Below are positions 10,475 to 26,281 of a stretch of DNA of 64,000 nucleotides, piece after piece. Position 1 is the stretch's first letter; every line of letters begins with the position of its first letter. This DNA comes from Amycolatopsis granulosa (GTDB taxonomy: Bacteria > Actinomycetota > Actinomycetes > Mycobacteriales > Pseudonocardiaceae): contig NZ_JAANOV010000001.1 in assembly GCF_011758745.1 (NCBI RefSeq), positions 248,001 through 312,000 of the forward strand, given 5' to 3'. Under the pieces are notes generated by a model. That model ran no database searches. It was not told where the DNA came from and worked only from the letters and a program-made list of their open reading frames with translations. Made by a program: the position numbers and the translations under genes.

Positions 10475-11335
10475 TCAGGCGGTGGTGCGCCGGTAGTGCT
10501 CGGCGATCTCGTCGCTGGTGGTGAGCCAGACACCCTCGTGGCCGGCGATGTAGGCCAGCGCCTCGTCGAGGTAGCGCGCCCGGAACGGCTGGCCGATGAC
10601 GAACGGGTGCAGCGCGAGCGCCATCACCCGCCCGCTGGCCGCCGAGTCCGCGTAGAGCTGGTCGAACTGGTCCTTGATGATCTGCAGCACCTGCGGACCG
10701 GTGAATCCCTTGGTGACGAACATGAGCAGGTCGTTCACCTCGAGCGTGTAGGGGACGCTCAGCAGACCGGGCACGTTCAGCCGGTAGGGCTGGTCGTCGT
10801 TGGTCCAGTCCAGCACGTAGCTCAGGCCGAGTTCGGCCAGCAGCCGCGGCGTGTTCATGGTCTCGGTCAGACCGGGACCCATCCAGCCCTTCGGCCGCTG
10901 CCCGCTCGCCTTCTCGATGGTGGTGACGATGTCGGCGAGGATCTCCCGCTCGTCGTCGATCTCCAGGTTCGCGTGCAGCCGCGAGTTGGTCTGCCCGTGC
11001 GCGAGCCAGGCCCAGTTCCGCGCGCGCCCGGCCTCGATGACCTGCGGGTAGTGCTCCGCGACCTCCGAATTGAGCAGCGTCGACGCCCGGATCCCGTACC
11101 GGTCCAGGGTCTCGATCACGCGCCAGATGCCGACGCGCATCCCGTAGTCGCGCCAGCCGTAGTTGAGCGGGTCGGGCACCAGGGTGTTGGTCGAGGCCCA
11201 GATGCTGGTCGAGGGCTTGTCCACGTGGAAGTGCTCGATGTTGAGGCCGACGTAGAAGGCGACGCGCGCACCGTTGGGCCAGGTGATCGGCTCGCGATCA
11301 ACGATCGGCTGGTAGTCGAAGAGTTCTACGTTCAT
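10475..11335 (-). CDS. PuuE-like polysaccharide deacetylase family hydrolase
   Basis: A cytoplasmic NodB-fold protein of 286 residues with no signal peptide, closer to the allantoinase-like PuuE group than to glycan deacetylases. Visible segments are NGARVAFYVGLNIEHF, LAHGQTNSR, PKGWMGPGLTET, LDWTNDDQPY and ALHPFVIGQP, where family catalytic motifs sit. It lacks the canonical DDG and uses NIEHF, as in C-N bond hydrolysing relatives. Start: ATG at 11335, although GGAGG lies only one base before it; an in-frame TTG is at 11350. It diverges from the CoA-transferase operon across a TGTC-N-GACA-type operator, so it likely belongs to the same catabolic regulon. Substrate unknown. Confidence 0.8.
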   Translation of the reverse strand: MNVELFDYQPIVDREPITWPNGARVAFYVGLNIEHFHVDKPSTSIWASTNTLVPDPLNYGWRDYGMRVGIWRVIETLDRYGIRASTLLNSEVAEHYPQVIEAGRARNWAWLAHGQTNSRLHANLEIDDEREILADIVTTIEKASGQRPKGWMGPGLTETMNTPRLLAELGLSYVLDWTNDDQPYRLNVPGLLSVPYTLEVNDLLMFVTKGFTGPQVLQIIKDQFDQLYADSAASGRVMALALHPFVIGQPFRARYLDEALAYIAGHEGVWLTTSDEIAEHYRRTTA

Positions 11336-11391
11336 GCCTCCAGCGTGCAACCTTCACATCAGTGTCAAGGTCAAGCAGCTGCAATTCGTTA

Positions 11392-11485: not shown

Positions 11486-12742
11486 ATGCCGGTCGCACTC
11501 GGACCGCTCGAGGGTGTCCGTGTGGTGGACATGACCACGTCCTACGCGGGGCCCACGGCCGCGATGTACCTCGGTGACCTCGGCGCCACCGTCATCAAGG
11601 TCGAGCGCCCGGGGACGGGGGACGACGCGCGAGGCTGGGGGCCGCCCTTCGTGGCCGGGGAATCGGCCTGGTTCGCCTCCGCCAACCGCAACAAGCAGTC
11701 CGTCGTGCTCGACATCCGCGCGCCGGAGGGGCGCGAGGTGCTGTTGCGGCTGGTCGACACCGCCGACGTGTTCCTGCACAACGTGAACCCGGCCAAGGCC
11801 GCCGCCCTGGGCATCGACGGTGAGCAGCTGCGCTCCCGCAACCCTCGCCTGGTCTACTGCGCGCTGTCGGGTTTCGGGCTGGACGGCCCGGACCGCGGCC
11901 TGCCGGGCTACGACCTGGTCGCCCAGGCCCGTTCCGGCCTGATGTCGGTCACCGGGGAACAGGGCCGCAGCCCGCAGCGCGTGTCGACCGCGCTGTCCGA
12001 TGTGGTCACCGGGATGTGCGCGGCCATCGCGGTCAACGCCGCCCTGGTCCGCCAGCGGGTCAGCGGCGCGGGCGAGATCATCGACGTCTCCCTGCTCGAC
12101 GCCGACCTCGCGCTCATGGCGCCGCGGATCGCCGCTTTCCACGCCGGTGAGCCCGAACCGGCACCCAGTGGCGGCACCGATTCGGTGCTCGCCGTCTACC
12201 AGCCTTTCGAGACCGCGGACCGCACGATGGTGGTCGCCGTCGGCAACGACCTGATGTGGCAGCGCCTCTGCCGCGCGCTCGAGCTGGAGGACCTGGCCGC
12301 CGATCCCGCGCTGGCCGGCAACGCCGGCCGGCGTGAGCAGCGGGCTCGCGTCACCGAGGCGATCGCCGCCCGCCTCGCCACCCGGCCCGCGGCCGACTGG
12401 CTGCGGATCCTCGGCACCGCCCAGGTGCCCGCCGCGATCGTGCACACGCTGTCCGAAGTGGTCAAGGACCCGCAGGTGGTGGCCCGCGGCGCGGTGCTCC
12501 CGGTCCCCGGCTCGGGCGACGAGCTGGTCACCGTCCGCAGCCCGTTCCGGCTGTCGTCGGTGGCGCCGCGCAACGAACGGTTCCCGGCGCTCGGCGAGCA
12601 CACCCGCCAGGTCCTGCGCGGCCTGGGCTACCACGAGGAGGACATCACGCGGATGAAACGCAAGGGTGTGGTTTCCGACGGCCCCGGCGCAGACGCCGGG
12701 ACCGTCGAGGTTGGCGTGGCTGGTGAGGCGGCGGCGTCATGA
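11486..12742 (+). CDS. CaiB/BaiF family (class III) CoA-transferase
   Basis: Transfers CoA between carboxylic acids; 418 residues, normal for the family. The N-terminus reads PLEGVRVVDMTTSYAGP, then YLGDLGATVIKVERPGTGDD, the CoA-binding start of class III transferases. The catalytic aspartate lies in the DVSLLDADLAL segment. The start ATG 11486 has GGGAGGGG at 11473-11480. It is the first gene of a nine-gene operon and overlaps the next by ATGA. With an AMP-forming ligase at the operon end, it probably provides a second way to load or recycle CoA on the pathway acid. CoA donor and acceptor are unknown. Confidence 0.9.
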   Translation: MPVALGPLEGVRVVDMTTSYAGPTAAMYLGDLGATVIKVERPGTGDDARGWGPPFVAGESAWFASANRNKQSVVLDIRAPEGREVLLRLVDTADVFLHNVNPAKAAALGIDGEQLRSRNPRLVYCALSGFGLDGPDRGLPGYDLVAQARSGLMSVTGEQGRSPQRVSTALSDVVTGMCAAIAVNAALVRQRVSGAGEIIDVSLLDADLALMAPRIAAFHAGEPEPAPSGGTDSVLAVYQPFETADRTMVVAVGNDLMWQRLCRALELEDLAADPALAGNAGRREQRARVTEAIAARLATRPAADWLRILGTAQVPAAIVHTLSEVVKDPQVVARGAVLPVPGSGDELVTVRSPFRLSSVAPRNERFPALGEHTRQVLRGLGYHEEDITRMKRKGVVSDGPGADAGTVEVGVAGEAAAS

Positions 12743-13530
12743 GCGACCTGCTCGCGCAGCGCAGCGGCGCGGTGGTGACGCTCACCATCCACCGCCCGGC
12801 GGCGCTGAACGCCCTCACCGGCGCGTTGCTGGCGGATCTGCGCCGGGCGGTGGAGGAGGCCGCGGACGACCGGACGGTCCGGGCGGTGGTGATCACCGGC
12901 AGCGGGGAGAAGGCGTTCAGCGCCGGGGCCGACCTGAACGAGATCTCGGTGCTCGGATCGGATCTGGACAAGGCACGGGAGGTGATGGCGGCGGGGCAGG
13001 CCGCGTTGCGCGCGATCGAGCGCGCCCCGGTTCCGGTCATCGCCGCCGTCAACGGGCTCGCGCTCGGCGGTGGGTTCGAGCTGGTCCTGGCCTCGACCTT
13101 CGCGGTGCTGTCCACCCGGGCGTCGTTGGGGCTGCCCGAGGCGGCCCTGGGCCTGATCCCCGGCTACGGCGGTACCCAGCGGCTGCCGCGCGCGGTCGGG
13201 CACCGGGTCGCCGCGCACCTGATGCTGACCGGGGCGCGGCTGTCCGCCGACCGCGCCTACGAGCTGGGCGTCACACCGGTACCCCCCGTGGCGCCGGAGG
13301 AGCTCCTGCCCACCGCGACGTCGATCGCCGAGACGATCGCCGCGCGCGGCCCGCTCGCCGTGCGCGCCATCCTGCACGCCGCCGAGGCGGCTCGGGACGC
13401 GCCGCTGGAGGAGGGGCTGACCACCGAGACCGAGCTCGCGGCGCGGGCGATCGCGAGCCCGGAATCCACCGAGGGGGTGGCCGCGTTCACCGAGCGCAGG
13501 CCCCCCGTGTTCCCGAACCCGGAGGACTGA
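12739..13530 (+). CDS. Enoyl-CoA hydratase/isomerase family protein (BadK-like role)
   Basis: Crotonase-fold protein of 263 residues. The oxyanion-hole segments are FSAGADLNEI and NGLALGGGFEL. The catalytic glutamates of true hydratases appear in ASLGLPEAALGLIPGYGGTQ, so it should hydrate an alpha,beta-unsaturated acyl-CoA. The ATG overlaps the CoA-transferase stop (ATGA), implying coupled translation. In a cyclohexanecarboxylate-type pathway this would add water to cyclohex-1-ene-1-carboxyl-CoA. That role is inferred from operon composition, not from specific residues. Confidence 0.9.
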   Translation: MSDLLAQRSGAVVTLTIHRPAALNALTGALLADLRRAVEEAADDRTVRAVVITGSGEKAFSAGADLNEISVLGSDLDKAREVMAAGQAALRAIERAPVPVIAAVNGLALGGGFELVLASTFAVLSTRASLGLPEAALGLIPGYGGTQRLPRAVGHRVAAHLMLTGARLSADRAYELGVTPVPPVAPEELLPTATSIAETIAARGPLAVRAILHAAEAARDAPLEEGLTTETELAARAIASPESTEGVAAFTERRPPVFPNPED

Positions 13531-13532
13531 GG

Positions 13533-14756
13533 ATGCCGGCCGAGCCACTCGACTTGGACATCGACCCCGACGCGTACCACCGCCTGCACGCGGTGCTCGA
13601 CGAACCGGCGGCCGACGCGGCGCTGACCCCGCGCGAGCGGGAGATCCGCGACCGCACCCGGGAGGTGGTGGCGTCGGAGGTCGCGCCGCGCGCGGCGATC
13701 CTGGACGCCACGCACGCCTTCGCCCACGAGGGCGTGCAGGCGCTGGCCCGGGCCGGCCTGTGCGGGCTGCTGTTCCCGGAACACCTCGGCGGCAGCGGCG
13801 ACAGCACCGTCGCCTACGCGGTGGCGATGGAGGAGGTCACCGCCGGTTGCGCGGCGACCAGCCTGGTGTTCATGACCCAGACCCACGCCGCCTACCCCAT
13901 CCTGCTCGCCGGCACGGACGACCTGCGGCAGCGGTACATCCCCGGGCTGCTCGACGCCTCGCGCTACGGCTCGCTCGCCATCACCGAACCGGACGCGGGC
14001 TCCGATGTCGCCTCGCTGAAGACGACCGCCACCGAAACCCCGGACGGCTGGTCGATCACCGGGCAGAAGACGTTCATCACCACCGGCGACAAGGCCGGCG
14101 TGATCGTCTGTTTCGCCACCGTCGACCGCGCACTGGGCCGCCGGGGCGTGACCGCCTTCGTCGTCGACGGTGACCGCCCGGGCCTGACCCGGGGTGCGCC
14201 GTTCACGAAGATGGGCATGCACGGTTCGAGCACCGCCGAGCTGTTCTTCGACCGCGTCCCGGTTCCGCGGGACAACGTGCTCGGCGAGGTGGGCGGCGGC
14301 TGGTCGGTGGTGATGAGCTCGGTCGTGAAGTCGCGCATCAGCGCGGCCGCGCAGGGCGTCGGCCTGGCCCGCGCCGCCTACGCGCGCACGCTCGCGGCCC
14401 TGACCCGGCTGCACGGTTCGCGGCTGCCGGACGAGTGCTCGTTCGCGCTCGCCGGGCTGCGGGGCCGCATCCTGCAGGGCCGGCTCCTGCTGCACGCTGT
14501 CGCCCGGCAGGTCGACGCGGACCCGCGGGTGTCCCCGGGCCAGATCGCGATCATGAAGCAGTCGTGCACGGACCTGGGGTTCCGCGCGGCGGTGGACGCC
14601 GCCCGCATCCTCGGCCCGTACGGTGACCTCGCCGCGGTGGGTGTCGAGCGCTGCCTGCGGGACGCCAAGGTCACCCAGATCTACGACGGCACCAACGAGA
14701 TCCAGCGGCTGCTCATCGGCCGTGAAACCACCCGGGCGATGGAGGGTGTGGCGTGA
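13533..14756 (+). CDS. Acyl-CoA dehydrogenase with Asp at the usual catalytic Glu position
   Basis: FAD enzyme of 407 residues that introduces the C2-C3 double bond. Signature segments are AITEPDAGSDVASLKTTAT, GQKTFITTGDKA, FTKMGMHGSSTAELFF and the C-terminal VTQIYDGTNEIQRLLIG. The last is normally YEGTNEIQ, with Glu as the base in medium-chain enzymes; here the codon is GAC (14684-14686), an aspartate. I recall Asp bases in some alicyclic acyl-CoA dehydrogenases but cannot verify this here. The start ATG 13533 has GGAGG at 13521-13525; the stop overlaps the SDR start (GTGA). In context it would oxidise a ring-bearing acyl-CoA. Confidence 0.9.
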   Translation: MPAEPLDLDIDPDAYHRLHAVLDEPAADAALTPREREIRDRTREVVASEVAPRAAILDATHAFAHEGVQALARAGLCGLLFPEHLGGSGDSTVAYAVAMEEVTAGCAATSLVFMTQTHAAYPILLAGTDDLRQRYIPGLLDASRYGSLAITEPDAGSDVASLKTTATETPDGWSITGQKTFITTGDKAGVIVCFATVDRALGRRGVTAFVVDGDRPGLTRGAPFTKMGMHGSSTAELFFDRVPVPRDNVLGEVGGGWSVVMSSVVKSRISAAAQGVGLARAAYARTLAALTRLHGSRLPDECSFALAGLRGRILQGRLLLHAVARQVDADPRVSPGQIAIMKQSCTDLGFRAAVDAARILGPYGDLAAVGVERCLRDAKVTQIYDGTNEIQRLLIGRETTRAMEGVA

Positions 14757-15511
14757 CGACAGCAAGTTTGCAGGGCAAGGTCGCCATCGTGACCGGCGCG
14801 GGCCGCGGGTTGGGCCGGGCGATGGCGCAGGCACTGGCCGAAGCGGGGGCGGCGGTCACCGTCGCCGCGCGCACCCGGTCCGAACTGGACCGGTTCGCCG
14901 ACGAGGTGAAGGCCTCCGGTGGTTCGGCGCTGGCCTGTCCCACCGACATCACCGACGAGTCCGCGGTGGAGCAGATGGTCACCGCGACGGTCGAGACGTT
15001 CGGACGGGTGGACATCCTCGTCAACAACTCCGGCATCGTGGCGACCTCCGCCCTGGTCGACCAGCCGGCGGCGGAGTGGGACCGGGTGATCGCTACCAAC
15101 CTGCGCGGCACCTTCCTGGCGACCCGCGCGGTCGGCAGGCACCTGATCGCCCAGGGCTCGGGCAAGGTCGTCAACATCGCGTCCAACTTCGCCCTCCAGG
15201 GCATCGCGCGGCACGCGGCGTACTCGGCGTCCAAGGGCGCGATCATCGCCTTCACCCGCTCGATGGCCGTGGAATGGGCCCCGCACGGGATCCAGGTGAA
15301 CGCGATCGCGCCCGGCTACTTCGCCACCGCGCTCAACGCCGACGTGCACGGGAACCCGGACATGCTGGCGCGCGTGGTGCGGGCGATCCCGGCGCGCCGG
15401 ATGGGGGATCCGGATGAACTCAAGCCGTGGCTGCTGCTGCTGGCCGGCCCCGCTTCGGACTTCATGACCGGCGAGGTCGTCGTCATCGACGGCGGCCAGA
15501 GCATCCGCTGA
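14753..15511 (+). CDS. SDR-family 3-hydroxyacyl-CoA (alcohol) dehydrogenase, BadH-like role
   Basis: Short-chain dehydrogenase of 252 residues. Cofactor motif is TGAGRGLG near residue 14, followed by AARTRSEL (a basic residue after strand 2 suggests NADP(H), though this is not decisive). NNSG, the catalytic Ser in NIASNFALQG, and Tyr/Lys in YSASK complete the active site; the C-terminus has the family VVVIDGGQS. Start is GTG overlapping the dehydrogenase stop. In alicyclic acid pathways an SDR oxidises the 2-hydroxycyclohexanecarboxyl-CoA intermediate to the ketone before ring opening, the role inferred here. Confidence 0.9.
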   Translation: MTTASLQGKVAIVTGAGRGLGRAMAQALAEAGAAVTVAARTRSELDRFADEVKASGGSALACPTDITDESAVEQMVTATVETFGRVDILVNNSGIVATSALVDQPAAEWDRVIATNLRGTFLATRAVGRHLIAQGSGKVVNIASNFALQGIARHAAYSASKGAIIAFTRSMAVEWAPHGIQVNAIAPGYFATALNADVHGNPDMLARVVRAIPARRMGDPDELKPWLLLLAGPASDFMTGEVVVIDGGQSIR

Positions 15512-15527
15512 CACCCCGGGAGAACGA

Positions 15528-16406
15528 GTGAGCAACGAGAGCAAGACCGTCGCCGTCCTCGGCGCCGGCACCATGGGCTCGGGCATCGCGACCGTCATGG
15601 CGCGCGCCGGGCACCGCACGATCCTGTTCGACATCGACGAGGCCAACCTCCAGCGCGGCCTGGGCACCGTCCGCGGGTTCCTGGACAAGAGCGTCCAGCT
15701 CGGCAAGCTCGACGCCGGCGCCGCGCAGGCCGCCAAGGACGGCCTGTCCGGCACCACCGAGCTGACCGATCTGGCGCCGTGCGACGTCGTGGTCGAGGCC
15801 GTGTTCGAGGACCTGGCGCTGAAGAAGGACACCTTCGGCCGGCTCGACGACATCGTGTCCGACTCGACCCTGTTCCACACGAACACCTCGACGTTGTCGG
15901 TGACCGGCATCGCCAGCGGCTCCCGCCGGCCCGAGCGCGTGGTGGGCACCCACTACTGCAACCCGGCGCCGCTGATGAAGCTCGTCGAGGTGGCCGACGG
16001 CCGGCACACCGCCACCTGGGCGCACCGGGCGACCGTGGAGTTCCTCGCCTCGCTGGGCAAGACCAGCGTCGTGACCCAGGACCGGCCCGGGTTCATCGTC
16101 AACCGGTTCCTCATCCCGTGGGAGAACTCCTGCATCCGGGCGCTGGAAGCGGGCTGGGCCACCAAGGAGGCCATCGACGCCGCCGTGCCGGGCGCGCTGG
16201 GGCACCCGATGGGCCCGTTCCGGCTGCTCGACATCGTCGGGCTGGACATCCACCAGCAGGTGTCCACCCGGCTCTACGAGCAGTTGCGCGACGACCGGTT
16301 CTTCCCACCGCCGATGGTGGAGCGGATGGTCGCCGCGGGCGATCTGGGCCGCAAGACCGGCCGCGGGTTCTACGACTACGACGACACCCGGTTGTTCGGG
16401 TCCTGA
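15528..16406 (+). CDS. 3-hydroxyacyl-CoA dehydrogenase (FadB2-like)
   Basis: Monofunctional NAD-dependent dehydrogenase of 292 residues. N-terminal GAGTMGSGIATVMARAG is the NAD fingerprint, with the acidic ribose-binding residue in LFDIDEAN. The catalytic histidine lies in GTHYCNPAPLMKLVEV, and NRFLIPWENSC begins the helical C-terminal domain ending RKTGRGFYDYD. GTG start 15528 is preceded by GGGAGAA. The operon thus has an SDR and an HAD-type dehydrogenase, fitting one hydroxyl oxidation on the ring and one on the opened chain. That division is inference. Confidence 0.9.
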   Translation: MSNESKTVAVLGAGTMGSGIATVMARAGHRTILFDIDEANLQRGLGTVRGFLDKSVQLGKLDAGAAQAAKDGLSGTTELTDLAPCDVVVEAVFEDLALKKDTFGRLDDIVSDSTLFHTNTSTLSVTGIASGSRRPERVVGTHYCNPAPLMKLVEVADGRHTATWAHRATVEFLASLGKTSVVTQDRPGFIVNRFLIPWENSCIRALEAGWATKEAIDAAVPGALGHPMGPFRLLDIVGLDIHQQVSTRLYEQLRDDRFFPPPMVERMVAAGDLGRKTGRGFYDYDDTRLFGS

Positions 16407-16416
16407 GGAGTAGGGC

Positions 16417-17172
16417 ATGAGTGAGTCCACAGCAGACTTCAAACGGGTCGGCCTGCTCGGCTCCGGGCCGGTGGCCACCGCGATCGCCGAGCTGGTGACC
16501 GCCTCCGGGCGCGAGGTGATCGGCACCGTCACCGATCTCGCCGACGCCGATCTCGTCCTGGAGTTCAGCGCCGGGGACGCCGCGGGGACGAAGCAGCTGC
16601 TCGCCGAGATCGCGGCCGTCGTCGGCGCGCACATCCCGATCGTGACCGGCACGGCGACGCTGTCGGTCACCGAGCTCGCGGCCGGCGTACCGGAACCGGA
16701 ACGCGTCGCCGGGCTGCACTTCCTCGACGCGGTGTCCGGCATCGGCGTGGCCGAGGTCGTCCGCGCCCTGCGCACCGCCGACGCGCTGGTGCAGGCCCTG
16801 GTCGCCTTCGCCGGCTCGCTGGAGGGCGTGCAGCCCGTCGTGGTGGACGACCGGCCCGGGTTCCTGCTCAACGCGCTGTTCGTGCCCTACCTCAACGACG
16901 TCGTCCAGGAGTTCGACGACGGACTGGCGAGCGCGGAGGACATCGACGTCGCCCTGAAGCTCGGCCTGGGCTACCGCCGCGGTCCACTCGAGACACTCGA
17001 CCGGATCGGGCTCGACGAGCACCTGCGCACCACCGAGGCCCTGTACGCGGCCACCCGGGACGGCCGGTACGCGCCACCACCGCTGCTGCGCCGGATGGTG
17101 GCCGCCGGGTACCTCGGCGACAAGACCGGACAAGGCTTCCGCACCGCGGCAGCGGCAACCGAGGAGGAGTGA
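16417..17172 (+). CDS. Degenerate 3-hydroxyacyl-CoA dehydrogenase-like protein
   Basis: Paralogue of the preceding protein, 251 residues, with a shortened and eroded N-terminal Rossmann half. The glycine loop is LLGSGPVATAI, and the acidic residue that binds NAD ribose is not evident. Where the active-site HxxNP motif should be it reads GLHFLDAVSG, keeping His but replacing Asn by Asp. The C-terminal dimerisation half is well kept (DDRPGFLLNALFVPYLND, GYLGDKTGQGF). The RBS GAGGAG precedes ATG 16417. It may be a partner subunit of the preceding enzyme, a dehydrogenase with altered specificity, or a non-catalytic acyl-CoA-binding protein. It is conserved as an open frame, so not simply decaying. 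Confidence 0.75.
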   Translation: MSESTADFKRVGLLGSGPVATAIAELVTASGREVIGTVTDLADADLVLEFSAGDAAGTKQLLAEIAAVVGAHIPIVTGTATLSVTELAAGVPEPERVAGLHFLDAVSGIGVAEVVRALRTADALVQALVAFAGSLEGVQPVVVDDRPGFLLNALFVPYLNDVVQEFDDGLASAEDIDVALKLGLGYRRGPLETLDRIGLDEHLRTTEALYAATRDGRYAPPPLLRRMVAAGYLGDKTGQGFRTAAAATEEE

Positions 17173-17179
17173 GTTGACG

Positions 17180-17956
17180 ATGAGCTATGACGACATCCTG
17201 GTCAGCACCGACGGCCCGGTGCTCACCATCACGATCAACCGGCCCGGCAACGGCAACAAGTTCCGCCACCAGACCTGTCTGGAACTCTTCGACGCCCTCC
17301 AGCGGTTCCGCCTCGATCCGGCGCTGCGCGCCGCGGTCCTCACCGGTGCCGGCGACAAGTTCTTCTGCATCGGCGGCGAGCACGACCCGGTGACCTCGCT
17401 CGACCAGTCGCAGGTGCTGCCCATCGTGGACGTCTACCAGGCGATCGACACCATTCCCAAGCCGGTCCTCGCCGCCGTCAACGGGTTCGCGGTCGGCGGC
17501 GGCAACGTCCTGCACAACGTGTGCGATCTGACGATCGCGGCCGAGAACGCGGTGTTCCGGCAGGTCGGCCCGCTGGTCGGCAGCTTCGACGCCGGCTACG
17601 GCTCGTGGTACCTGGAGGACACCATCGGCCGCAAGCGGGCCAAGGAGATGTGGTACCTCAACCGCAAGTACACCGCCGCGCAGGCGCTGGCGATGGGACT
17701 GGTCAACGAGGTCGTCCCGCTGGCGGACCTGCCGGCCAGGGCCGCCGAGGTCGCCCACGAGATCGCCAGCCGCAGCCCGCTCGCGATCGGCGGTCTCAAG
17801 GCCGCGTTCTCCGCGCGGCACAACGGGGTCTCCGGTCAGGCGCGGATGGCGCACGACCAGCAGCTGACGCTCTACCTGCAGACGCGGGAGGCGCACGAGG
17901 TCAGTGCCGCCTTCGCCGAGCGGCGCAGCCCCAAGTCCGAGAGCTTCTGGTCATGA
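17180..17956 (+). CDS. BadI/MenB-type ring-opening beta-ketoacyl-CoA hydrolase
   Basis: Crotonase-superfamily protein of 258 residues closest in motif layout to 2-ketocyclohexanecarboxyl-CoA hydrolase (BadI) and naphthoyl-CoA synthase (MenB). Start MSYDDILVS resembles BadI. Oxyanion loops are FFCIGGEHD and NGFAVGGGNVLHNVCDL; the group-defining stretch is RQVGPLVGSFDAGYGSWYL followed by KRAKEMWYLNRKYTA and GLVNEVVPL. The C-terminal TLYLQTREAHE and FAERR also match. BadI opens a cyclic 2-oxoacyl-CoA by retro-Dieckmann hydrolysis. MenB itself is unlikely because no menaquinone gene is nearby. ATG 17180 is preferred over TTG 17174; RBS GGAGGAG lies at 17163-17169. Confidence 0.82.
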   Translation: MSYDDILVSTDGPVLTITINRPGNGNKFRHQTCLELFDALQRFRLDPALRAAVLTGAGDKFFCIGGEHDPVTSLDQSQVLPIVDVYQAIDTIPKPVLAAVNGFAVGGGNVLHNVCDLTIAAENAVFRQVGPLVGSFDAGYGSWYLEDTIGRKRAKEMWYLNRKYTAAQALAMGLVNEVVPLADLPARAAEVAHEIASRSPLAIGGLKAAFSARHNGVSGQARMAHDQQLTLYLQTREAHEVSAAFAERRSPKSESFWS

Positions 17957-18984
17957 CCTGGCGCGGCCCCCTGCTCGACGAGGAGCAGCGAGATCTGGTG
18001 TCCCTGCTGGACGCGGTCGCCGCCGACCGGGCGGTCGCGCCGGCCGACGACGCCCCCGAGACGGTCGCCGCCCTGGTTCGCGAGCTCGCCGGCCTCGGCG
18101 TGTGGACCTTGGGCACGGCCGAGTCCGCGGGTGGCGGCGGTGCCGGGTGGATGACCACCGCGGTCGCGTTCGAGCGGCTCGGCCGGTCCTGGCCCGCCCT
18201 CGGCTGGGCCGCCGTGCAGGCGCACGCCGCGGTGGACGTGCTCGGCGCGGATCCCCGCTTCGCGGATCTGGTGGGTGCGATCCACGCCGGTGAGGCGGGC
18301 ATCGCCGTCGTCGACGGCGACGCCGCCCACGTCCGGCTCGCCTGGCAGGGCGAGAGCCTCTCCGGAGCCGTGGACCGGGTGGACGCTGCCGCGCGATCGC
18401 CGCACCTGCTGGTCCTGACCGGCGCGGACGAGGCGTTCCTGGTCCCGCCCGCCGTGACCAAGGCGACCCCGCTGCGCCGCACCGGTCTCGGTGGCGCGCT
18501 CACCGTGGCGCTGGACGTGGCGGCCGGTGCGGGCGAGGTGCACCAGCTCACCGGCGTCGCCGCCGCGGCCGCTCGCCGCCGGCTCCTCCTCGGCGCGGCG
18601 GCGGTCGCCACCGGCATCGCGGGTGCCGCCGCCGACGACGCGGCCGGCTACACCGCCCTGCGCCACCAGTTCGGCCGGGCGCTGCACGACATCCCGGTCG
18701 TGCGGATGTCGCTGTTCGAGCAGGCCGCCCGCACGGCGGCCGCGCTGGCCGCCGTCACGTCCGCCGTCCCGGACGAGCTGGCGGCGCTCGCGGTGGCCCG
18801 GGAGTGCTGCGACGCCGCCATCGAGGTGGCGGCCGCGGCCGTGCAGGCGCACGGCGGGTACGGCTACCTCGCGGAGTACCCGGTGGAACGGCGGCTCCGC
18901 GACGCGGTCTCCCTGCGGGCCGCCGCCGGTACCCACGGCACGCCGGCCCGCACCGCCACCGCTTCGAGAAGGGACGCGCGATGA
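17953..18984 (+). CDS. Divergent acyl-CoA dehydrogenase family protein
   Basis: A short (343-residue) member of the family, overlapping both neighbours by ATGA. The C-terminal domain is recognisable: LRHQFGRALHDIPVVRMSLF and VQAHGGYGYLAEYPVERRLR. The N-terminal and middle domains are much reduced (Ala/Gly/Val-rich, no GQKxxI or TEPxAGSD motif), and the usual YEGT base motif is absent at the C-terminus. It may pair with the full-length dehydrogenase as a non-catalytic subunit, as in heteromeric FadE complexes, or act on an unusual substrate. The role is not determinable from sequence. Confidence 0.82.
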   Translation: MTWRGPLLDEEQRDLVSLLDAVAADRAVAPADDAPETVAALVRELAGLGVWTLGTAESAGGGGAGWMTTAVAFERLGRSWPALGWAAVQAHAAVDVLGADPRFADLVGAIHAGEAGIAVVDGDAAHVRLAWQGESLSGAVDRVDAAARSPHLLVLTGADEAFLVPPAVTKATPLRRTGLGGALTVALDVAAGAGEVHQLTGVAAAAARRRLLLGAAAVATGIAGAAADDAAGYTALRHQFGRALHDIPVVRMSLFEQAARTAAALAAVTSAVPDELAALAVARECCDAAIEVAAAAVQAHGGYGYLAEYPVERRLRDAVSLRAAAGTHGTPARTATASRRDAR

Positions 18985-20651
18985 CGACACTCCCGGTCCG
19001 CCGGCCGCTGGCGGCGGCACTGGACGGGCAGTACTCACCGATCGACGACGACACCGCGGCACGGTGGCGCGCCGAGGGCTGGTGGGAGGACCGCTCCGTG
19101 CGGTCCCTGCTGACCGAGGCCGCGCAGGCCCATCCGGACCGGATCGCGCTGGTCGGCCGCCGCTCCGACGGCAGCCGGGTCACCCGGACCTACCGGGAGT
19201 TCGACGAGGGTGCCCATCACGTCGCCAGCGTGCTCGCCCACCTGGGTGTCGGTGTGGGCGACGCCGTGGTCGTGATGCTGCCGAACTGGGTGGAGTACCC
19301 GGAACTGGTCTTCGGCATCAACGAGGTCGGCGCGATCTACGCGGGAATCCCGGTGGCCTACGGCCCCCGGCAGGCGGCGGCGATCCTGCGCCGCAGCAAG
19401 GCCAAGGTGCTGGTGATCCCGCGCCGCTGGCGCAGCACCCACCACCTGGAGATGGCCCGCGCCCTGCGGGCCGAGCTGCCCGCGTTGCAGCACATCCTCG
19501 TCCTGGACGAGGACGGCTCGGACCTGGGCCCGGGGGAGTCGCGGTGGGCCGACCACGCCGGTGTGCCCACCCGGACGTTCCCGGACCCGGACCCGGACCG
19601 GATCTGCTACCTCGGCTTCACCTCCGGCACCACGGGCGAGCCCAAGGGTGCGATGCACAGCCACAACACGCTGATCTACTCCGCCCGGCAGCAGGCGAAC
19701 CACATCGGGGCGAAGGTCTTCGGCGAGCCGATGGTGCAGCTGGTCGCCTCGCCGGCCGGCCACCACACCGGGTTCGAGTGGGGCATCCTGTTCACCACGC
19801 TGCTCGCCGGCACCGGTGTGCACGTCGACCGCTGGGACCCGGAGTGGGGCACGCGGATCATCCGCGAGGAGGGCGTGACCACCTTCTTCGGCGCGCCGAC
19901 CTTCCTGCAGGACATGCTGCGCACGGACCTCGCCGGCGACCCGGCGTGCCCGCTGACCTGCCTGGTGATCGCCGGAGCCCCGGTTCCCCGCAACCTGCCG
20001 GCGCAGGCCGCTGCCGCGCTCGGCGCCTACGTCGCCCCCGCGTGGGGCATGACCGAGTGCAGCATCCTCACCTCCTGCACCCCGGCGGAGGGCGAGGCGA
20101 TCCTGCGCACCGACGGGTCGGTGTTCGCCGGATCCGCGGTCCGGATCGTCGACGCGACCGGTACGGAGGTCGGCGCGGGGGAGGTCGGGGACCTGGTCAT
20201 GCGCGGCCCGGGGGTCGTGCACGGCTACTACGACCGGCCCGACGCCACCGATGAGGCGTACCTGCCGGGTCTGTGGTTCCGCACCGGGGACCGGGCGAGC
20301 GTGGACGAGCACGGGTGGCTCTCCTTGCGGGGCCGCAGCAAGGACGTCATCATCCGCGGCGGTGAGAACATCCCGGTGACCGATGTGGAGTCCCTCATCT
20401 TCGATCACCCGGACGTGCTCAACGCCGCCGTGGTCGGCCTGCCCGACCCGCGGCTGGGGGAGCGGGTCTGCGCGGTCCTGGTGCTCCGGCCGGGGCGCCC
20501 GGAACTCACGGTGGGCACGCTGGGGGAGTACCTGCTCGCGCGGGGGCTGTCGAAGCACTACCTGCCGGAGCGGGTGGAGGTGCTCGGCGAGCTGCCGATG
20601 ACGCCCAGCGGGAAGATCCAGAAGTTCAAGCTCCGCGAACTCCTGGGCTGA
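18981..20651 (+). CDS. AMP-forming acyl-CoA ligase (AliA/CaiC-like)
   Basis: Adenylate-forming enzyme of 556 residues that activates a carboxylic acid with ATP and CoA. Motifs in order: phosphate-binding FTSGTTGEPKGAMHSHN, WGMTEC, hinge WFRTGDRASVDEHGW followed by LRGRSKDVIIRGGENI, and the catalytic lysine in PMTPSGKIQKFKL. The N-terminal DDDTAARWRAEGWWEDRSV resembles cyclohexanecarboxylate-CoA and related ligases. ATG 18981 overlaps the preceding stop by four bases, closing the nine-gene operon before a strong hairpin. It likely activates the acid taken up by the MFS transporter encoded at 24953. Confidence 0.9.
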   Translation: MTTLPVRRPLAAALDGQYSPIDDDTAARWRAEGWWEDRSVRSLLTEAAQAHPDRIALVGRRSDGSRVTRTYREFDEGAHHVASVLAHLGVGVGDAVVVMLPNWVEYPELVFGINEVGAIYAGIPVAYGPRQAAAILRRSKAKVLVIPRRWRSTHHLEMARALRAELPALQHILVLDEDGSDLGPGESRWADHAGVPTRTFPDPDPDRICYLGFTSGTTGEPKGAMHSHNTLIYSARQQANHIGAKVFGEPMVQLVASPAGHHTGFEWGILFTTLLAGTGVHVDRWDPEWGTRIIREEGVTTFFGAPTFLQDMLRTDLAGDPACPLTCLVIAGAPVPRNLPAQAAAALGAYVAPAWGMTECSILTSCTPAEGEAILRTDGSVFAGSAVRIVDATGTEVGAGEVGDLVMRGPGVVHGYYDRPDATDEAYLPGLWFRTGDRASVDEHGWLSLRGRSKDVIIRGGENIPVTDVESLIFDHPDVLNAAVVGLPDPRLGERVCAVLVLRPGRPELTVGTLGEYLLARGLSKHYLPERVEVLGELPMTPSGKIQKFKLRELLG

Positions 20652-20704: not shown

Positions 20705-21088
20705 TCATTCCGTGCGGGGTTCGAGCTCGGGTGCGCCGACGACCTCGGCCCACGCCTGCACACCGCCCTGGAAGGCCACGATGCCCGCTTCGGGCAGTGC
20801 GATCTCGATCGCCTCGAGGATTTCCTCCGGCGTGGCCCCCGCGGCGAGGGCCAGCTTGATGTGCGTGACGATCTGCGTGTGCGGGGCGCGCATGACCGTC
20901 AGGCTCAGGATGAACAGCAGCTCCTTGGTGCGCTTGTCCAGCCGCCGCTCGGTGAGGTAGGCCTGCGCGACCATGCCGTCCATCGCCTTGAGCAGGTCGA
21001 GGTCGGCGCCGGCCAGGATCTTGTGCAGCCGGAACGCGTACCCCCGCCGCCGCGCCAGCTCGTCGATGTAGTCCTGCGCCTCGCTCAC
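20705..21088 (-). CDS. Carboxymuconolactone decarboxylase / AhpD-like family protein
   Basis: A 127-residue all-helical protein. Family features are LLKAMDGMVAQAYLTERRLD, KTKELLFI-like RTKELLFILSL, and HIKLALAAGATPEEILEAIEIA. It lacks the CxxC of AhpD peroxidase-type members, so it resembles gamma-carboxymuconolactone decarboxylase-type proteins, which act on small lactones or acids; no catalytic function is assigned. GTG start 21088 overlaps the stop of the 2-hydroxyacid dehydrogenase (GTGA), so the two are translated together and probably lie in the same regulon as the ring-degradation operon. Confidence 0.82.
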   Translation of the reverse strand: MSEAQDYIDELARRRGYAFRLHKILAGADLDLLKAMDGMVAQAYLTERRLDKRTKELLFILSLTVMRAPHTQIVTHIKLALAAGATPEEILEAIEIALPEAGIVAFQGGVQAWAEVVGAPELEPRTE

Positions 21089-22149
21089 CGCGCGACCTCG
21101 CGTCCGGCCGCGAGGGCGCGGCTCACGCCACGGCTGAGGTCCAGCAGCTCCTGGGTCATCAGCGAGCGCGGGCCGCCGGCGACGTGCGGGGTCAGGATGA
21201 CCCGTTCGGAGTCCAGGAGCGGGTTGTCCGCGGGGACGGGTTCGCTTCCGTGGACGTCGAGGGCGGCGAAGCGGAGTTCGCCGCGGCGCAGGGCTTGCGC
21301 CAGGGCGTGCTCGTCGATGAGCAGTCCCCGGGAGACGTTGACGAGCACCGCGTCGGCCCGCATCTTGCCGAGGAAGGCGGCGTCGACGACGTGACGGTTG
21401 TCCGCCGTGCTCGGGATGTGCAGGCTCACCGCGTCGCTTTCGGCGAGCAGGTCGTCCAGCGGCAGGTACTCCAGGCCGTCGACCGTCCGTTGTGGACGGC
21501 CGCGGAGCGAGGTCCACACCACCCGGGCGCCGGCGGCGCGCAGGCGCCGGGCGACGAGCAGCCCGACCTCGCCGAGTCCGATGATGCCGACGGTGCTCGC
21601 GGACAACGTCCGTCCGAACGCGACACCGGGCCAGTTGTAGGCGGTGGATCCGGGTTCGGCGGAACCGGCCGCGACGGTCGACTCCCGGGTGGTCCGGTCC
21701 AGCCGGGGCAGCTCCCGCAGCGCCGCCATCACGAGCAGCACGGCGTGGTCGGCCGTCGCTTCCAGCGCCGGGCGGGGCACGAAGTCGAGCGTGATGCCGC
21801 GCTCGCCCGCCGCGGCGACGTCAATGGTGTCCCGCCGCTCGCCGAGCTTCTGGACGTGCCGCAGCTGCGGCAGCCGGTCCAGCAGCTGCCGGTCCACCCG
21901 GGTCCGGCGGACGACGAGCACGCGGGTGCCGGGGTCGGGCGCGTAGCCGGTGTCCCCCTTGGCCGGCATGTCGATGGCGGCGTCCGGGATGTGGCCCGCG
22001 GCGAAGAGCGCGTCCAGATCGACCACCTCGGGGGCGAAGAACGCCTCCAGGCGCCGGCGGGTCGCCTCGTCCGGTCCGCGCATCACGTCGGCTGCGGCAG
22101 CGAGCATGTGGTCCCACTCGGGGAAGCTCACGACGGTGGGGTTGACCAT
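21085..22149 (-). CDS. D-isomer-specific 2-hydroxyacid dehydrogenase family protein
   Basis: NAD(P)-dependent 2-oxoacid/2-hydroxyacid oxidoreductase of 354 residues. The cofactor motif is VGIIGLGEVG. The catalytic triad is in place: Arg in NVSRGLLIDEHAL, Glu in ALDVHGSEPVP and His in ILTPHVAGG. ATG 22149 is chosen because AGGAG precedes it by six bases. The promoter carries a TGTC-A-GACA operator (22187-22195). It is transcribed with the carboxymuconolactone decarboxylase-like gene. The substrate is unknown; regulation links it to the alicyclic acid pathway. Confidence 0.9.
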   Translation of the reverse strand: MVNPTVVSFPEWDHMLAAAADVMRGPDEATRRRLEAFFAPEVVDLDALFAAGHIPDAAIDMPAKGDTGYAPDPGTRVLVVRRTRVDRQLLDRLPQLRHVQKLGERRDTIDVAAAGERGITLDFVPRPALEATADHAVLLVMAALRELPRLDRTTRESTVAAGSAEPGSTAYNWPGVAFGRTLSASTVGIIGLGEVGLLVARRLRAAGARVVWTSLRGRPQRTVDGLEYLPLDDLLAESDAVSLHIPSTADNRHVVDAAFLGKMRADAVLVNVSRGLLIDEHALAQALRRGELRFAALDVHGSEPVPADNPLLDSERVILTPHVAGGPRSLMTQELLDLSRGVSRALAAGREVAR

Positions 22150-22184
22150 CCCATCTCCTGTCTGACCGATTTGACAATGCGTCA

Positions 22185-22197
22185 ATTGTCAGACATT
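22185..22197. promoter_or_regulatory. Predicted GntR operator upstream of the 2-hydroxyacid dehydrogenase
   Basis: ATTGTCAGACATT has the core TGTC-A-GACA (22187-22195) and is symmetric except at one position. A flanking TTGACAATGCGTCAATTG stretch may add half-sites. It lies 36 bases upstream of the start codon at 22149. Confidence 0.6.
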
Positions 22198-22250: not shown

Positions 22251-23003
22251 TCAGACCCCCGCCGGGGCCGGCCGGCCGTTTCCGCCGGCCGGCTGGTCCG
22301 CGAGCGCGGCCCTGATGTGCTCCCGCAGGTAGGCGAGGTGTTCGCTGATCGCCGCTTCCGCGGCCTGCCGGTCCTGCGCCTCGATCGCCTGCACGATCCG
22401 CTGGTGCTGGGCCACCGTGTGGCGTCCGACCTCCGGCGAGAGGTCGAGGTAGCGCACCGGCTCCGACTCGTGGTGCAGCGCGTGGACCAGTGACGCGAGC
22501 ACCCGGTTGCCCGACATCCGGGCGATGATGGTGTGGAAGCGCATGTCCAGCTCGGCGATCAGCGGGTCGTCCACCGAGCGCGTCTTCTGCTCGCGCACCA
22601 CCTGGCGCAGCTCCTCCAGGTCCTCGGCGGACCGGTTCTCGGCGGCCAGCCCCGCGCACGGGACCTCGAGGTGCTGGCGCGCCAGGGACACCTCCTCGAA
22701 GCTGACGCTGCCGAGCCGCACGAGGTTCTGCATCGAGGCGCGCACCACCTCGCCGAGGGACTGGTGGTCCACGGGCTGGACGAAGCTGCCGCCGCCCGCG
22801 CCGGGCACGCGGCGGATCAGTCCCTGCATCTGCAGCGACGACAACGCCTCGCGGATGGTCGGGCGGCTGACGCCGAACTGCCGCGCGAGCTCGGCCTCCG
22901 ACGGCAGGCGTTCGCCGGTGCCCAGCTTGCTGCTCAGGATCGCCTTCTTCAGTGCCTGCTCGACCTGTTCACGCGGGCGGAGAATCTTCTCCCCGAGCTC
23001 CAT
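22251..23003 (-). CDS. GntR/FadR-family transcriptional regulator with FCD domain
   Basis: A 250-residue regulator. The N-terminal winged helix reads VEQALKKAILSSKLGTGERL and PSEAELARQFGVSRPTIREA; the C-terminal FCD helical domain carries metal/ligand residues in ELDMRFHTIIARMSGN and the histidines near AQHQRIVQAIE and EHLAYLREH. ATG 23003 is used because GGAAGGGG precedes it and the wHTH starts at once; the frame is open to 23063. It is central in the island, and TGTC-N-GACA sites fit the palindromes bound by FCD-type GntR proteins. A near-match in its own promoter suggests autoregulation. The effector is probably a pathway acid or acyl-CoA (inference). Confidence 0.9.
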   Translation of the reverse strand: MELGEKILRPREQVEQALKKAILSSKLGTGERLPSEAELARQFGVSRPTIREALSSLQMQGLIRRVPGAGGGSFVQPVDHQSLGEVVRASMQNLVRLGSVSFEEVSLARQHLEVPCAGLAAENRSAEDLEELRQVVREQKTRSVDDPLIAELDMRFHTIIARMSGNRVLASLVHALHHESEPVRYLDLSPEVGRHTVAQHQRIVQAIEAQDRQAAEAAISEHLAYLREHIRAALADQPAGGNGRPAPAGV

Positions 23004-23058
23004 GTGTCCGATCCCCTTCCCGAGGTGCACGCGTCCCATCTGCAAATGTACGGCACTT

Positions 23059-23119
23059 GGCAAATGGGTGAGAGTTTGCCCTGCGGTCTGCGACTTACCT
23101 AATCGGCAAATGTCAGGCA
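23059..23119. promoter_or_regulatory. GntR gene promoter region with inverted TTTGCC repeats and an imperfect operator
   Basis: GGCAAA (23059-23064) and TTTGCC (23075-23080) form an inverted repeat, and a third GGCAAA begins at 23105. TGTCAGGCA (23111-23119) matches the regulon motif with one mismatch. The arrangement suggests autoregulation, but no binding data exist here. Confidence 0.45.
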
Positions 23120-24952: not shown

Positions 24953-26281
24953 ATGACTACCGACACCGCGCACGGTCAAGCCACCGTGCCGATCCGGAGG
25001 ATCGCGCTCGCGAGCTTCATCGGAACCTGCATCGAGTACTTCGACTTCTTCATCTTCAGCACGGCATCGGCCCTCGTCATCAACAAGCTGTTCTTCCCGG
25101 CACTGGATCCGCTGGCCGGAACCCTCGCCGCGTTCGCCGCGTTCGGTGTCGCGTTCTTCATGCGCCCCTTCGGCGGCATGCTGTTCGGGCACTTCGGTGA
25201 CCGGATCGGCCGCAAGCGGATGCTGGTGCTCAGCCTCCTGATCATGGGCGTCGGCACCGCGTCCGTGGGGCTGCTGCCGACCTACGCGCAGATCGGCGTC
25301 TGGGCGCCGATCCTGCTCGTCGTCACCCGCATGCTGCAGGGTCTCGCCGTCGGCGGGGAGTGGAGCGGCGCGGTCCTCCTCGCGGCCGAGCACGCGCCCC
25401 CGTCCCGGCGTGCGTTCTTCAGCAGCTGGCCGCAGGTCGGGATCCCGGCCGGACTGGTGATGTCCTCGGCGGTCTTCTACTTCGTGGGCCTGATGCCGCA
25501 CGACGCGATGATGAGCTGGGGATGGCGGCTGCCGTTCATCGCGAGCGCGATCCTGGTCGTGATCGGCCTCTACGTGCGCCTGCGCATCGACGAATCGCCG
25601 GCCTTCAAGGCGGTGCGCGAGCGCGGTGAGGTGGCCAAGTTCCCCGCACTCGAGCTCGTGCGCACGGCGAAGAAGTCGGTCGTCATCGCGCTGCTGGCGC
25701 ACGCCGGGAACAGCGTGGTGTTCTACATGGCTTCGGTGTTCGGCCTGAAGTACGCCGCGGACCGGGGGACCGGCAGCGGTGGCATGCTGCTCGCCCTGAT
25801 CGTGGCGGCCGCGCTGCAGGTCGTGACGATCCCGTTGTCGGCGGTCCTGGCCGACCGCTACGGCCGTCGCCCGGTGATGGCGGTGGGTGCCGTCCTGACG
25901 GTCATCCTGGCCTTCCCGGTCTTCTGGCTGCTCGGCGCCGGGCACTTCCTGCCCAGTCTGGTGGCGCTGGTGCTGGCGATCTCCGTACTGCACGCGCTGC
26001 TGTACGGCCCGGAGGCGAGCTTCCTGCTCGAACTGTTCGAAACGCGGCTCCGTTACACCGGTTCCGCGGTCGGTTACCAGATCGGCAGTATGCTCTTCAG
26101 CGGTCCCACGCCATTCATCGCGGCGGCCCTGTTCGCCTGGGCGCAGTCGATCTGGCCGCTGGCGGCTTACATGATCCTTTCCGGGCTGCTCACCGTGATC
26201 GGAGTGGCGATGGCGAAGGAGACCCGGGCGATGGAATTCGTATCGGGCCGCTCCCGTGGAGCTCTCGACAAGGTCGAGTAG
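24953..26281 (+). CDS. MFS metabolite:proton symporter (KgtP/ShiA type)
   Basis: A 442-residue transporter with about twelve membrane segments. It has the metabolite:H+ symporter signature at the N-terminus (ASFIGTCIEYFDFFIFSTAS), the loop-2 motif GHFGDRIGRKRMLVLSL, GLAVGGEWSGAVLLAAEHAP and the mirrored loop motif LADRYGRRPVMAVGAV. Such carriers import organic acids. ATG 24953 has GGCAGG upstream. Divergent from the oxidoreductase gene across the regulon operator, it is the probable uptake system for the acid processed by the operon at 11486-20651. Confidence 0.9.
   Translation: MTTDTAHGQATVPIRRIALASFIGTCIEYFDFFIFSTASALVINKLFFPALDPLAGTLAAFAAFGVAFFMRPFGGMLFGHFGDRIGRKRMLVLSLLIMGVGTASVGLLPTYAQIGVWAPILLVVTRMLQGLAVGGEWSGAVLLAAEHAPPSRRAFFSSWPQVGIPAGLVMSSAVFYFVGLMPHDAMMSWGWRLPFIASAILVVIGLYVRLRIDESPAFKAVRERGEVAKFPALELVRTAKKSVVIALLAHAGNSVVFYMASVFGLKYAADRGTGSGGMLLALIVAAALQVVTIPLSAVLADRYGRRPVMAVGAVLTVILAFPVFWLLGAGHFLPSLVALVLAISVLHALLYGPEASFLLELFETRLRYTGSAVGYQIGSMLFSGPTPFIAAALFAWAQSIWPLAAYMILSGLLTVIGVAMAKETRAMEFVSGRSRGALDKVE

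Follow-up and report, generated by a model that had tools for sequence, protein, structure and literature searches.

What acid is degraded by a set of genes that holds the parts of a beta-oxidation pathway and no thiolase? The question is raised by a nine-gene operon on the + strand, at 11486-20651, of a 64,000-nucleotide stretch of Amycolatopsis granulosa DNA (hereafter the window; positions 248001-312000 of a 5.62 Mb genome in one contig). We propose, with a probability of about 0.45, that this operon catabolises a carboxylic acid whose skeleton requires hydrolytic cleavage after beta-oxidation, and that it does so with a composite acyl-CoA dehydrogenase (ACAD). The acid would most likely be alicyclic and perhaps dicarboxylic. 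All steps of the pathway proposed below are read from gene content, gene order, conservation, the clade of a crotonase and losses of motifs.

A conserved nine-gene operon without a thiolase

The initial annotation had described nine open reading frames (ORFs) in this region, and their coordinates and families matched those that we found. Adjacent genes overlap by 4 bases or are separated by at most 16. The operon is bordered by a divergent gene on its 5' side (10475-11350, - strand) and by a convergent gene on its 3' side (20705 to ~21118, - strand). Pfam and NCBIfam matches along it follow the series CoA_transf_3, ECH (enoyl-CoA hydratase), ACAD, SDR (short-chain dehydrogenase), 3HCDH, 3HCDH, ECH/MenB-BadI, ACAD and AMP ligase, the second ACAD being matched mainly in its C-terminal domain. 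Here HAD stands for 3-hydroxyacyl-CoA dehydrogenase (3HCDH) throughout, and paired values are score/cut-off. The nine genes are:

11486..12742, + strand: CoAT1, class III CoA-transferase (CaiB/BaiF); PF02515 419 bits, NF052585 318/750 bits
12739..13530, + strand: ECH, ordinary enoyl-CoA hydratase; PF00378 193 bits
13533..14756, + strand: ACAD1, acyl-CoA dehydrogenase; TEP..GSD, Asp (IYDGTNEIQ) at the classical base position, without the R..FG motif for flavin adenine dinucleotide (FAD)
14753..15511, + strand: SDR, short-chain dehydrogenase, proposed to oxidise 3-hydroxyacyl-CoA; PF13561 213 bits
15528..16406, + strand: HAD1, intact 3-hydroxyacyl-CoA dehydrogenase; PF02737 and PF00725
16417..17172, + strand: HAD2, degenerate 3HCDH of 251 aa; NAD domain ~40-45 aa short, Ser to Ala, Asn to Asp
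17180..17956, + strand: crotonase of a third MenB/BadI-type clade by tree, motifs and scores, proposed to cleave a C-C bond (ring) hydrolytically
17953..18984, + strand: ACAD2, pseudo-acyl-CoA dehydrogenase, proposed partner of ACAD1; no acidic base residue, R.QFG and Q.HGGYGY present
18981..20651, + strand: LIG, AMP-forming acyl-CoA ligase; PF00501, TIGR03208 (AliA) 428/792.3 bits

Among the best 25 NCBIfam matches of each protein, an equivalog cut-off was reached by none of the nine. SDR exceeded one subfamily model (NF005559, 233 bits vs a cut-off of 215), and ECH reached no cut-off among its 25. LIG was scored best by the AliA model, yet far below the cut-off. CoAT1 passed PF02515 across its full length (cut-off 23.3 bits, residues 8-373), and its nearest solved structure is human succinate-hydroxymethylglutarate CoA-transferase (SUGCT; 9br6, E 2.4e-75). 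The initial annotation had noted no thiolase in the operon, and none is encoded in the 64 kb: the genome has 19 Thiolase_N matches, 17 of them above the cut-off, none falls in the window, and the nearest lies ~180 kb from its edge.

We compared the operon with loci of relatives. Our set comprised the best 80 of 571 relatives from a scan of the collection, and the search patterns, TG[ATE]G[ED]KFF and CIGGEH[DE][PE], bias the set to these motifs. By title, 22 of the 80 are actinobacterial and 58 proteobacterial; L160 was counted as actinobacterial by its title (Rhodococcus), though it is filed under Cyanobacteriota in the crotonase tree. The 27 actinobacterial loci consist of 18 from the scan (4 of the 22 repeated family loci) and nine family loci, and L075 and L093 share sequence. 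Gene order was compared for recognised genes only, and gaps <1600 bases were tolerated.

Relatives of HAD2 at 53-100% identity were found in 10 of 150 same-family genomes (own included), the next best match being 42% identical. The nine other genomes all hold the operon; L070 has no ligase in view, and ACAD1 is interrupted in L075. The order CoAT-ECH-ACAD1-SDR-HAD1-HAD2-crotonase-ACAD2 recurs in 17 of the 27 other actinobacterial loci, so the operon is one unit and not a chance arrangement. All nine genes, with the ligase directly after ACAD2, are present in 11/27. L089 and L099 have neither ACAD gene recognised. The spread is patchy, with a crotonase orthologue in 6/394 class-level genomes (own included; E 1e-95). 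The gene set is reshuffled in alpha- and betaproteobacteria: the order CoAT-crotonase-ligase-ECH-SDR-ACAD-HAD1-HAD2-CoAT is exact in 6/58 loci, at least 19 further loci start with CoAT-crotonase-ligase-ECH (among the 15 commonest orders), and 10 hold the crotonase alone or with the ligase only. The proteobacterial ligase, SDR and ACAD are ~29-38% identical to their window counterparts and may be replacements. Gene families and recurrent order support the earlier description of one operon equipped for beta-oxidation without a thiolase. The operon is real and conserved, and reads best as a ring-opening form of beta-oxidation that does without a thiolase and has unusual enzyme pairs.

The crotonase forms a clade beside BadI and MenB

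The protein at 17180-17956 had been annotated as a BadI/MenB-type hydrolase. Membership of the group held: Ser135, Asp137 and Tyr232, which we take to be the catalytic residues of MenB and BadI, are invariant in 10 crotonase orthologues and align with both enzymes (GS.D.G and a C-terminal Tyr). Identity with BadI did not hold. The crotonase scored 228/467.6 bits with the BadI model TIGR03210, and the GGDQ of BadI and MenB is replaced by GGEH in the actinobacterial crotonases and by GG[ERS]K in the proteobacterial rows seen, followed by a shorter loop. A tree of 77 rows (IQ-TREE, LG+C20+F+G4; hydratase outgroup on long branches), in which group labels were assigned by score and motif and not from assayed sequences, placed 23 actinobacterial and 18 proteobacterial crotonases in one clade of 41 rows with support of 100/99. 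Separate clades were formed by BadI with chcpca-like proteins (96/93), in which the 10 BadI rows group at 100/99, and by MenB (98/99). Judged by score, motif and clade, the crotonase is a distant cousin of BadI, not BadI itself. The initial annotation had named a firm placement with MenB or ordinary hydratases as a refutation of its reading; in this tree the protein groups with neither, so that its reading was not refuted in this way.

The highest NCBIfam score of the crotonase was for MenB (NF005637, 269/380 bits, above the 228 bits of BadI; a second MenB model gave 249/342.7 bits, so that neither cut-off was reached), and its best solved relatives are MenB. The enzyme could then run in the MenB direction, as a Dieckmann-type condensation, or act on a naphthoyl-type substrate. 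We consider this very improbable, since the crotonase lies outside the MenB clade, the GGDQ-[KR]xRG loop of MenB is absent from it, another protein of the genome carries the MenB motif, and the distribution is as patchy as described above.

A closer comparison is the bad-ali route of Rhodopseudomonas palustris and Aromatoleum sp. CIB, with AliA, AliB, BadK, BadH and BadI (excerpts of PMC9795900), to which the initial annotation had likened the operon. Ligase, acyl-CoA dehydrogenase, hydratase, SDR and a MenB/BadI-type crotonase are also found in the window operon. In contrast, the window crotonase belongs to another clade, and the operon adds a CoA-transferase, two 3HCDH proteins and a pseudo-ACAD. 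The chcpca cluster of Rhodococcus aetherivorans BCP1 is also actinobacterial and shares a BadI-like protein, SDR, ligase, ACAD and ECH with the window operon, whereas its gene list, in the excerpted text of PMC5906575, includes two TetR regulators and neither the CoA-transferase nor the 3HCDH that the window has. The chcpca label in our tree was given by score and motif, without the BCP1 sequence.

The operon might encode a divergent form of the bad-ali/chcpca pathway, in which cyclohexanecarboxylate would again be the substrate, pimelyl-CoA the product and the extra genes accessories. The reaction classes are the same, the best model of the ligase is AliA, and a reduced quick tree of 54 rows joins the crotonase clade with BadI and the chcpca type (SH-like approximate likelihood ratio test, SH-aLRT, 95.6), although the 77-row tree joins BadI with MenB, weakly (85/55). 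At E 1e-50, the BadI model matched two proteins of the own genome, the window crotonase and a protein with the MenB motif, which leaves no other BadI candidate there. However, the AliA, AliB and BadI models were all missed by wide margins (TIGR03208 428/792.3, TIGR03207 107/575.35 and TIGR03210 228/467.6 bits). The CoA-transferase and 3HCDH genes missing from the chcpca list also speak against this alternative, as does a five-gene cassette introduced into Aromatoleum sp. CIB to show that the conversion of cyclohexanecarboxylate to pimelyl-CoA takes no further genes (excerpts of PMC9795900). We then examined 20 hand-picked genomes that hold the crotonase family, 12 proteobacterial and eight actinobacterial. 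BadI was present above the cut-off beside the crotonase family in 7/12 proteobacterial genomes, and a chcpca-like protein of 326-342 bits in 2/8 actinobacterial genomes; BadI above the cut-off was found in 0/8 of the latter, which favours the cyclohexanecarboxylate alternative. Several proteobacteria thus hold the crotonase alongside BadI, and cyclohexanecarboxylate is for this reason a less likely substrate of the window operon. We regard a divergent cyclohexanecarboxylate pathway as unlikely.

The FAD motif and a putative base are divided between two acyl-CoA dehydrogenases

The initial annotation had overlooked that the operon encodes two degenerate partner proteins, ACAD2 and HAD2. ACAD1 carries TEP..GSD in 25/25 actinobacterial loci and R..FG..L and LGG.G in none of them. 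The reverse was seen for ACAD2, with TEP..GSD in 0/22 loci, R..FG..L in 20/22 and HGG.G in 21/22. The position of the classical base, which we take to be the Glu before GT in MCAD and SCAD, is occupied by Asp in 25/25 ACAD1 rows (window residue 385; window included, interrupted L075 excluded) and is non-acidic in 23/23 ACAD2 rows (window included). The FAD nucleotide-binding motif therefore sits in the base-less ACAD2 and is missing from ACAD1, the division expected of a heteromer. Proteobacterial cluster ACADs have Glu at the base position in 38/39 rows, with one gap, and among the four solved relatives listed YEGT occurs in three and IYTGT in the fourth. At what is presumably the isovaleryl-type base position, Glu occurs in no ACAD1 or proteobacterial row; ACAD1 has Ser or Thr there, and the ACAD2 letters aligned with it are unsure. 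The model of ACAD2 (343 aa, mean pLDDT 91.6) has a complete ACAD fold, with a best Z of 34.9 for human SCAD.

This motif split is reminiscent of the heterotetrameric steroid dehydrogenases. In the alpha2beta2 enzymes ChsE4-ChsE5, ChsE1-ChsE2 and Tcur3481-Tcur3483, alpha provides the catalytic Glu, the substrate site and the isoalloxazine site, and beta binds the ADP-ribose part of FAD (excerpts of PMC11153573 and PMC8399759). As there, base and FAD nucleotide motif would lie on separate ACAD proteins of one operon, although the window operon is not in a steroid cluster and ACAD1 has Asp vs Glu. In our alignment, the invariant Asp is a departure from the published design with its catalytic Glu. 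The steroid heteromer 6wy8 is a weak sequence match to ACAD2 (E 3.3e-4) and is also among its Foldseek fold matches. The closest solved structure to ACAD1 is MmgC (5lnx), suggesting, though not proving, an origin independent of the steroid heteromers. A motif scan found R..FG..L in 0/39 proteobacterial cluster ACADs. In four of these, read by eye, the corresponding site shows an Arg, then a QSG stretch, and also a GGYGY loop, and for this reason the four look like ordinary homomeric enzymes.

HAD2, a proposed partner of HAD1, shows stages of decay

Residues of the two HAD proteins were counted per alignment column, with active-site roles presumed from the human enzyme. HAD1 retains the Gly loop, Ser, His, Glu and second Asn in 60/60 rows (25/25 actinobacterial). 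Its first active-site Asn is replaced by Leu in 35/35 proteobacterial rows, in clusters whose HAD2 is mostly stripped: the proteobacterial HAD2 has lost the first Gly in 21/24 rows, changed Ser to Glu in 21/24 and lost His in 21/24 (Ala in 18), with Glu kept in 24/24. Three proteobacterial HAD2 rows retain Ser, His and the first Asn, and in two scanned proteobacterial HAD2 proteins the 3HCDH C-terminal domain was matched and the N-terminal one was not. The window HAD2 lacks ~40-45 residues of the NAD domain, besides its Ser to Ala and Asn to Asp changes. The same stretch is shortened in L068, L087 and L096, all of which group with the window HAD2 (support 90). The Rossmann core is shortened in the window HAD2 model (mean pLDDT 82.7), from which NAD binding has likely been lost. 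From these residue changes, we read HAD2 as a partner of HAD1 that is undergoing decay. Descent of all HAD2 from one ancient duplicate was considered and set aside, since 10/11 proteobacterial rows lie on a very long branch apart from the actinobacterial ones in a quick tree.

Family genomes L019-L038 encode ORFs of ~600-1000 aa with two tandem 3HCDH units outside the operon; these are perhaps a fused 3HCDH pair.

A proposed pathway with hydrolytic cleavage

In the pathway that we propose, the acid would first be converted to its CoA thioester by the class III CoA-transferase, with succinyl-CoA or another acyl-CoA as donor, and/or by the AMP ligase. A composite ACAD1/ACAD2 heteromer would then yield the 2-enoyl-CoA, ACAD1 contributing the substrate site and the carboxylate base (Asp) and ACAD2 the FAD nucleotide half-site. 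The 2-enoyl-CoA would be hydrated by ECH and oxidised by SDR or HAD1 to a cyclic beta-ketoacyl-CoA, with HAD2 as a non-catalytic or weakly catalytic partner of HAD1. Finally, the crotonase would use water to split the C-C bond (retro-Dieckmann), giving a carboxyacyl-CoA that may enter general beta-oxidation with thiolases encoded elsewhere. We favour hydrolysis of a cyclic beta-ketoacyl-CoA, since the catalytic residues retained by the crotonase are those of a group known to form or open rings. The presence of the CoA-transferase would be accounted for if the ring acid were dicarboxylic or substituted.

The CoA-transferase also fits an open-chain dicarboxylic acid with branches or substituents, degraded by a logic like that for benzylsuccinate: it would be activated by CoA transfer, beta-oxidised and then cleaved by retro-Claisen hydrolysis of a beta-keto dicarboxyl-CoA in place of thiolysis. 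CoAT1 has SUGCT as its closest match and also aligns with each of the two chains of the benzylsuccinate CoA-transferase 9fn0, and a second class III CoA-transferase, not present in the window, follows the operon in 16/27 loci (e.g. the L085 13503-15644 region). However, ring opening and ring formation are the reactions of BadI and MenB, the known characterised enzymes of the crotonase group, and among the flanking genes that we inspected we saw none for arylsuccinate formation. We therefore consider an open-chain substrate improbable and keep the cyclic acid as the preferred substrate. A CoA-transferase for an alicyclic acid has a precedent in the succinyl-CoA:cyclohexanecarboxylate CoA-transferase of G. 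metallireducens (excerpts of PMC9795900). The naphthalene thn operon of the anaerobic culture N47 likewise combines a CoA-transferase with acyl-CoA dehydrogenases that act on an alicyclic dicarboxylate CoA ester; in the excerpts of PMC11659651, however, ThnP is a family I transferase, the route is anaerobic and both thn ACADs are active. The thn, steroid C/D ring, estrogen edc and naphthenic acid routes were rejected as a home for the cluster, as the gene sets in the published excerpts differ, and the auxin (iaa/iad) and monoterpene (perillyl-CoA) clusters were more tentatively set aside as well.

Several observations weigh against the proposed pathway. The argument of the initial annotation that a missing thiolase implies a ring is weaker than claimed: the absence from the window stands, and thiolase-like genes, recognised by eye, lie inside 5/27 actinobacterial and 6/58 proteobacterial fetched loci. 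Approximately unbiased (AU) tests rejected none of the sister alternatives for the crotonase clade (BadI vs MenB; p 0.334), and the eight actinobacterial genomes without BadI above the cut-off count here too. An R.[HR]G-like Arg persists in 11/25 ACAD1. The divergent loci L101, L102 and L160 carry only the crotonase, CoAT, ECH and ACAD1 (L101 with one extra CoAT); their ACAD1 is without R..FG, and no ACAD2 is in view. The activity of ACAD1 is uncertain because Asp replaces Glu at the base position; a Glu370Asp exchange in glutaryl-CoA dehydrogenase is reportedly the subject of one study. Most actinobacterial HAD2 copies are intact (His 23/24, Glu 24/24), and the tree does not unite them with the proteobacterial HAD2.

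More tentatively than the pathway itself, we suggest that the operon represents an undescribed, widespread aerobic pathway of Actinomycetota and Pseudomonadota, with a third functional lineage of MenB/BadI crotonases, a substrate other than cyclohexanecarboxylate and asymmetric enzyme pairs for consecutive oxidation steps. In actinobacteria, one such pair would be an ACAD with an Asp base and an active site shared between two proteins, with an evolutionary origin apart from steroid catabolism. The other pair, present in both phyla, would be a 3HCDH and a partner; most proteobacterial partners have lost both the catalytic His and the NAD domain. Searches of openly readable papers for the cluster, its chemistry and heteromeric ACADs gave no description of this cluster, which does not by itself prove novelty.

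If these suggestions are correct, this small crotonase group, whose known characterised enzymes are MenB and BadI, would gain a third lineage. The crotonase clade together with a CoA-transferase and a 3HCDH pair would then be a marker for the breakdown of an alicyclic or dicarboxylic acid in many soil and marine bacteria, and cluster genes called BadI or naphthoate synthase from similarity would need new names. Composite acyl-CoA dehydrogenases would extend beyond steroid breakdown, and the HAD2 copies would form a natural series of decay stages of one subunit of a 3HCDH pair.

Flanking genes

The following genes lie around the operon:

10475..11350, - strand: PuuE/polysaccharide-deacetylase-like hydrolase, possible accessory; PF01522 30.5 bits, TIGR03212 132/424.6 bits
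20705-21118, - strand: CMD-family gene; relatives in 5/27 loci
21085-22185, - strand: D-2-hydroxyacid dehydrogenase
22251..23063, - strand: GntR/FCD regulator, which may control the operon; PF00392 and PF07729
23174..23896, - strand: isochorismatase-type amidohydrolase, possible accessory; PF00857 118 bits
23953-24864, - strand: 3-hydroxyisobutyrate-dehydrogenase-like gene; relatives in 8/27 loci (30-49% identity)
24953..26281, + strand: MFS transporter, MHS-like by eye, possible substrate uptake; PF00083/PF07690
27403-28680, - strand: hormone-sensitive-lipase-type esterase; NF058653 306/350 bits

Relatives of the GntR/FCD regulator (E 1e-20) lie within 19/27 actinobacterial loci. A shared operator was sought in 16 loci, within the 235 bases that precede the CoA-transferase gene, and none was found. 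The MFS transporter has relatives of 52-61% identity in 5/27 loci, or in 11 when weaker ones are counted. An MDR (quinone-reductase-like) gene follows the operon in 11/27 actinobacterial loci and is present in 25/58 proteobacterial loci, with none in the window operon.

The deacetylase-like and isochorismatase-type genes, which flank the window operon, are adjacent to each other beside the operon in Actinomadura mexicana (L090 15689-17454). Their products could provide a step that opens a cyclic imide or amide and feeds the operon. A cyclic imide or amide was set aside as the upstream substrate: deacetylase-like relatives are present in 2/27 loci and isochorismatase-type relatives (71-72% identity) also in 2/27, suggesting that such a step is at most a local add-on.

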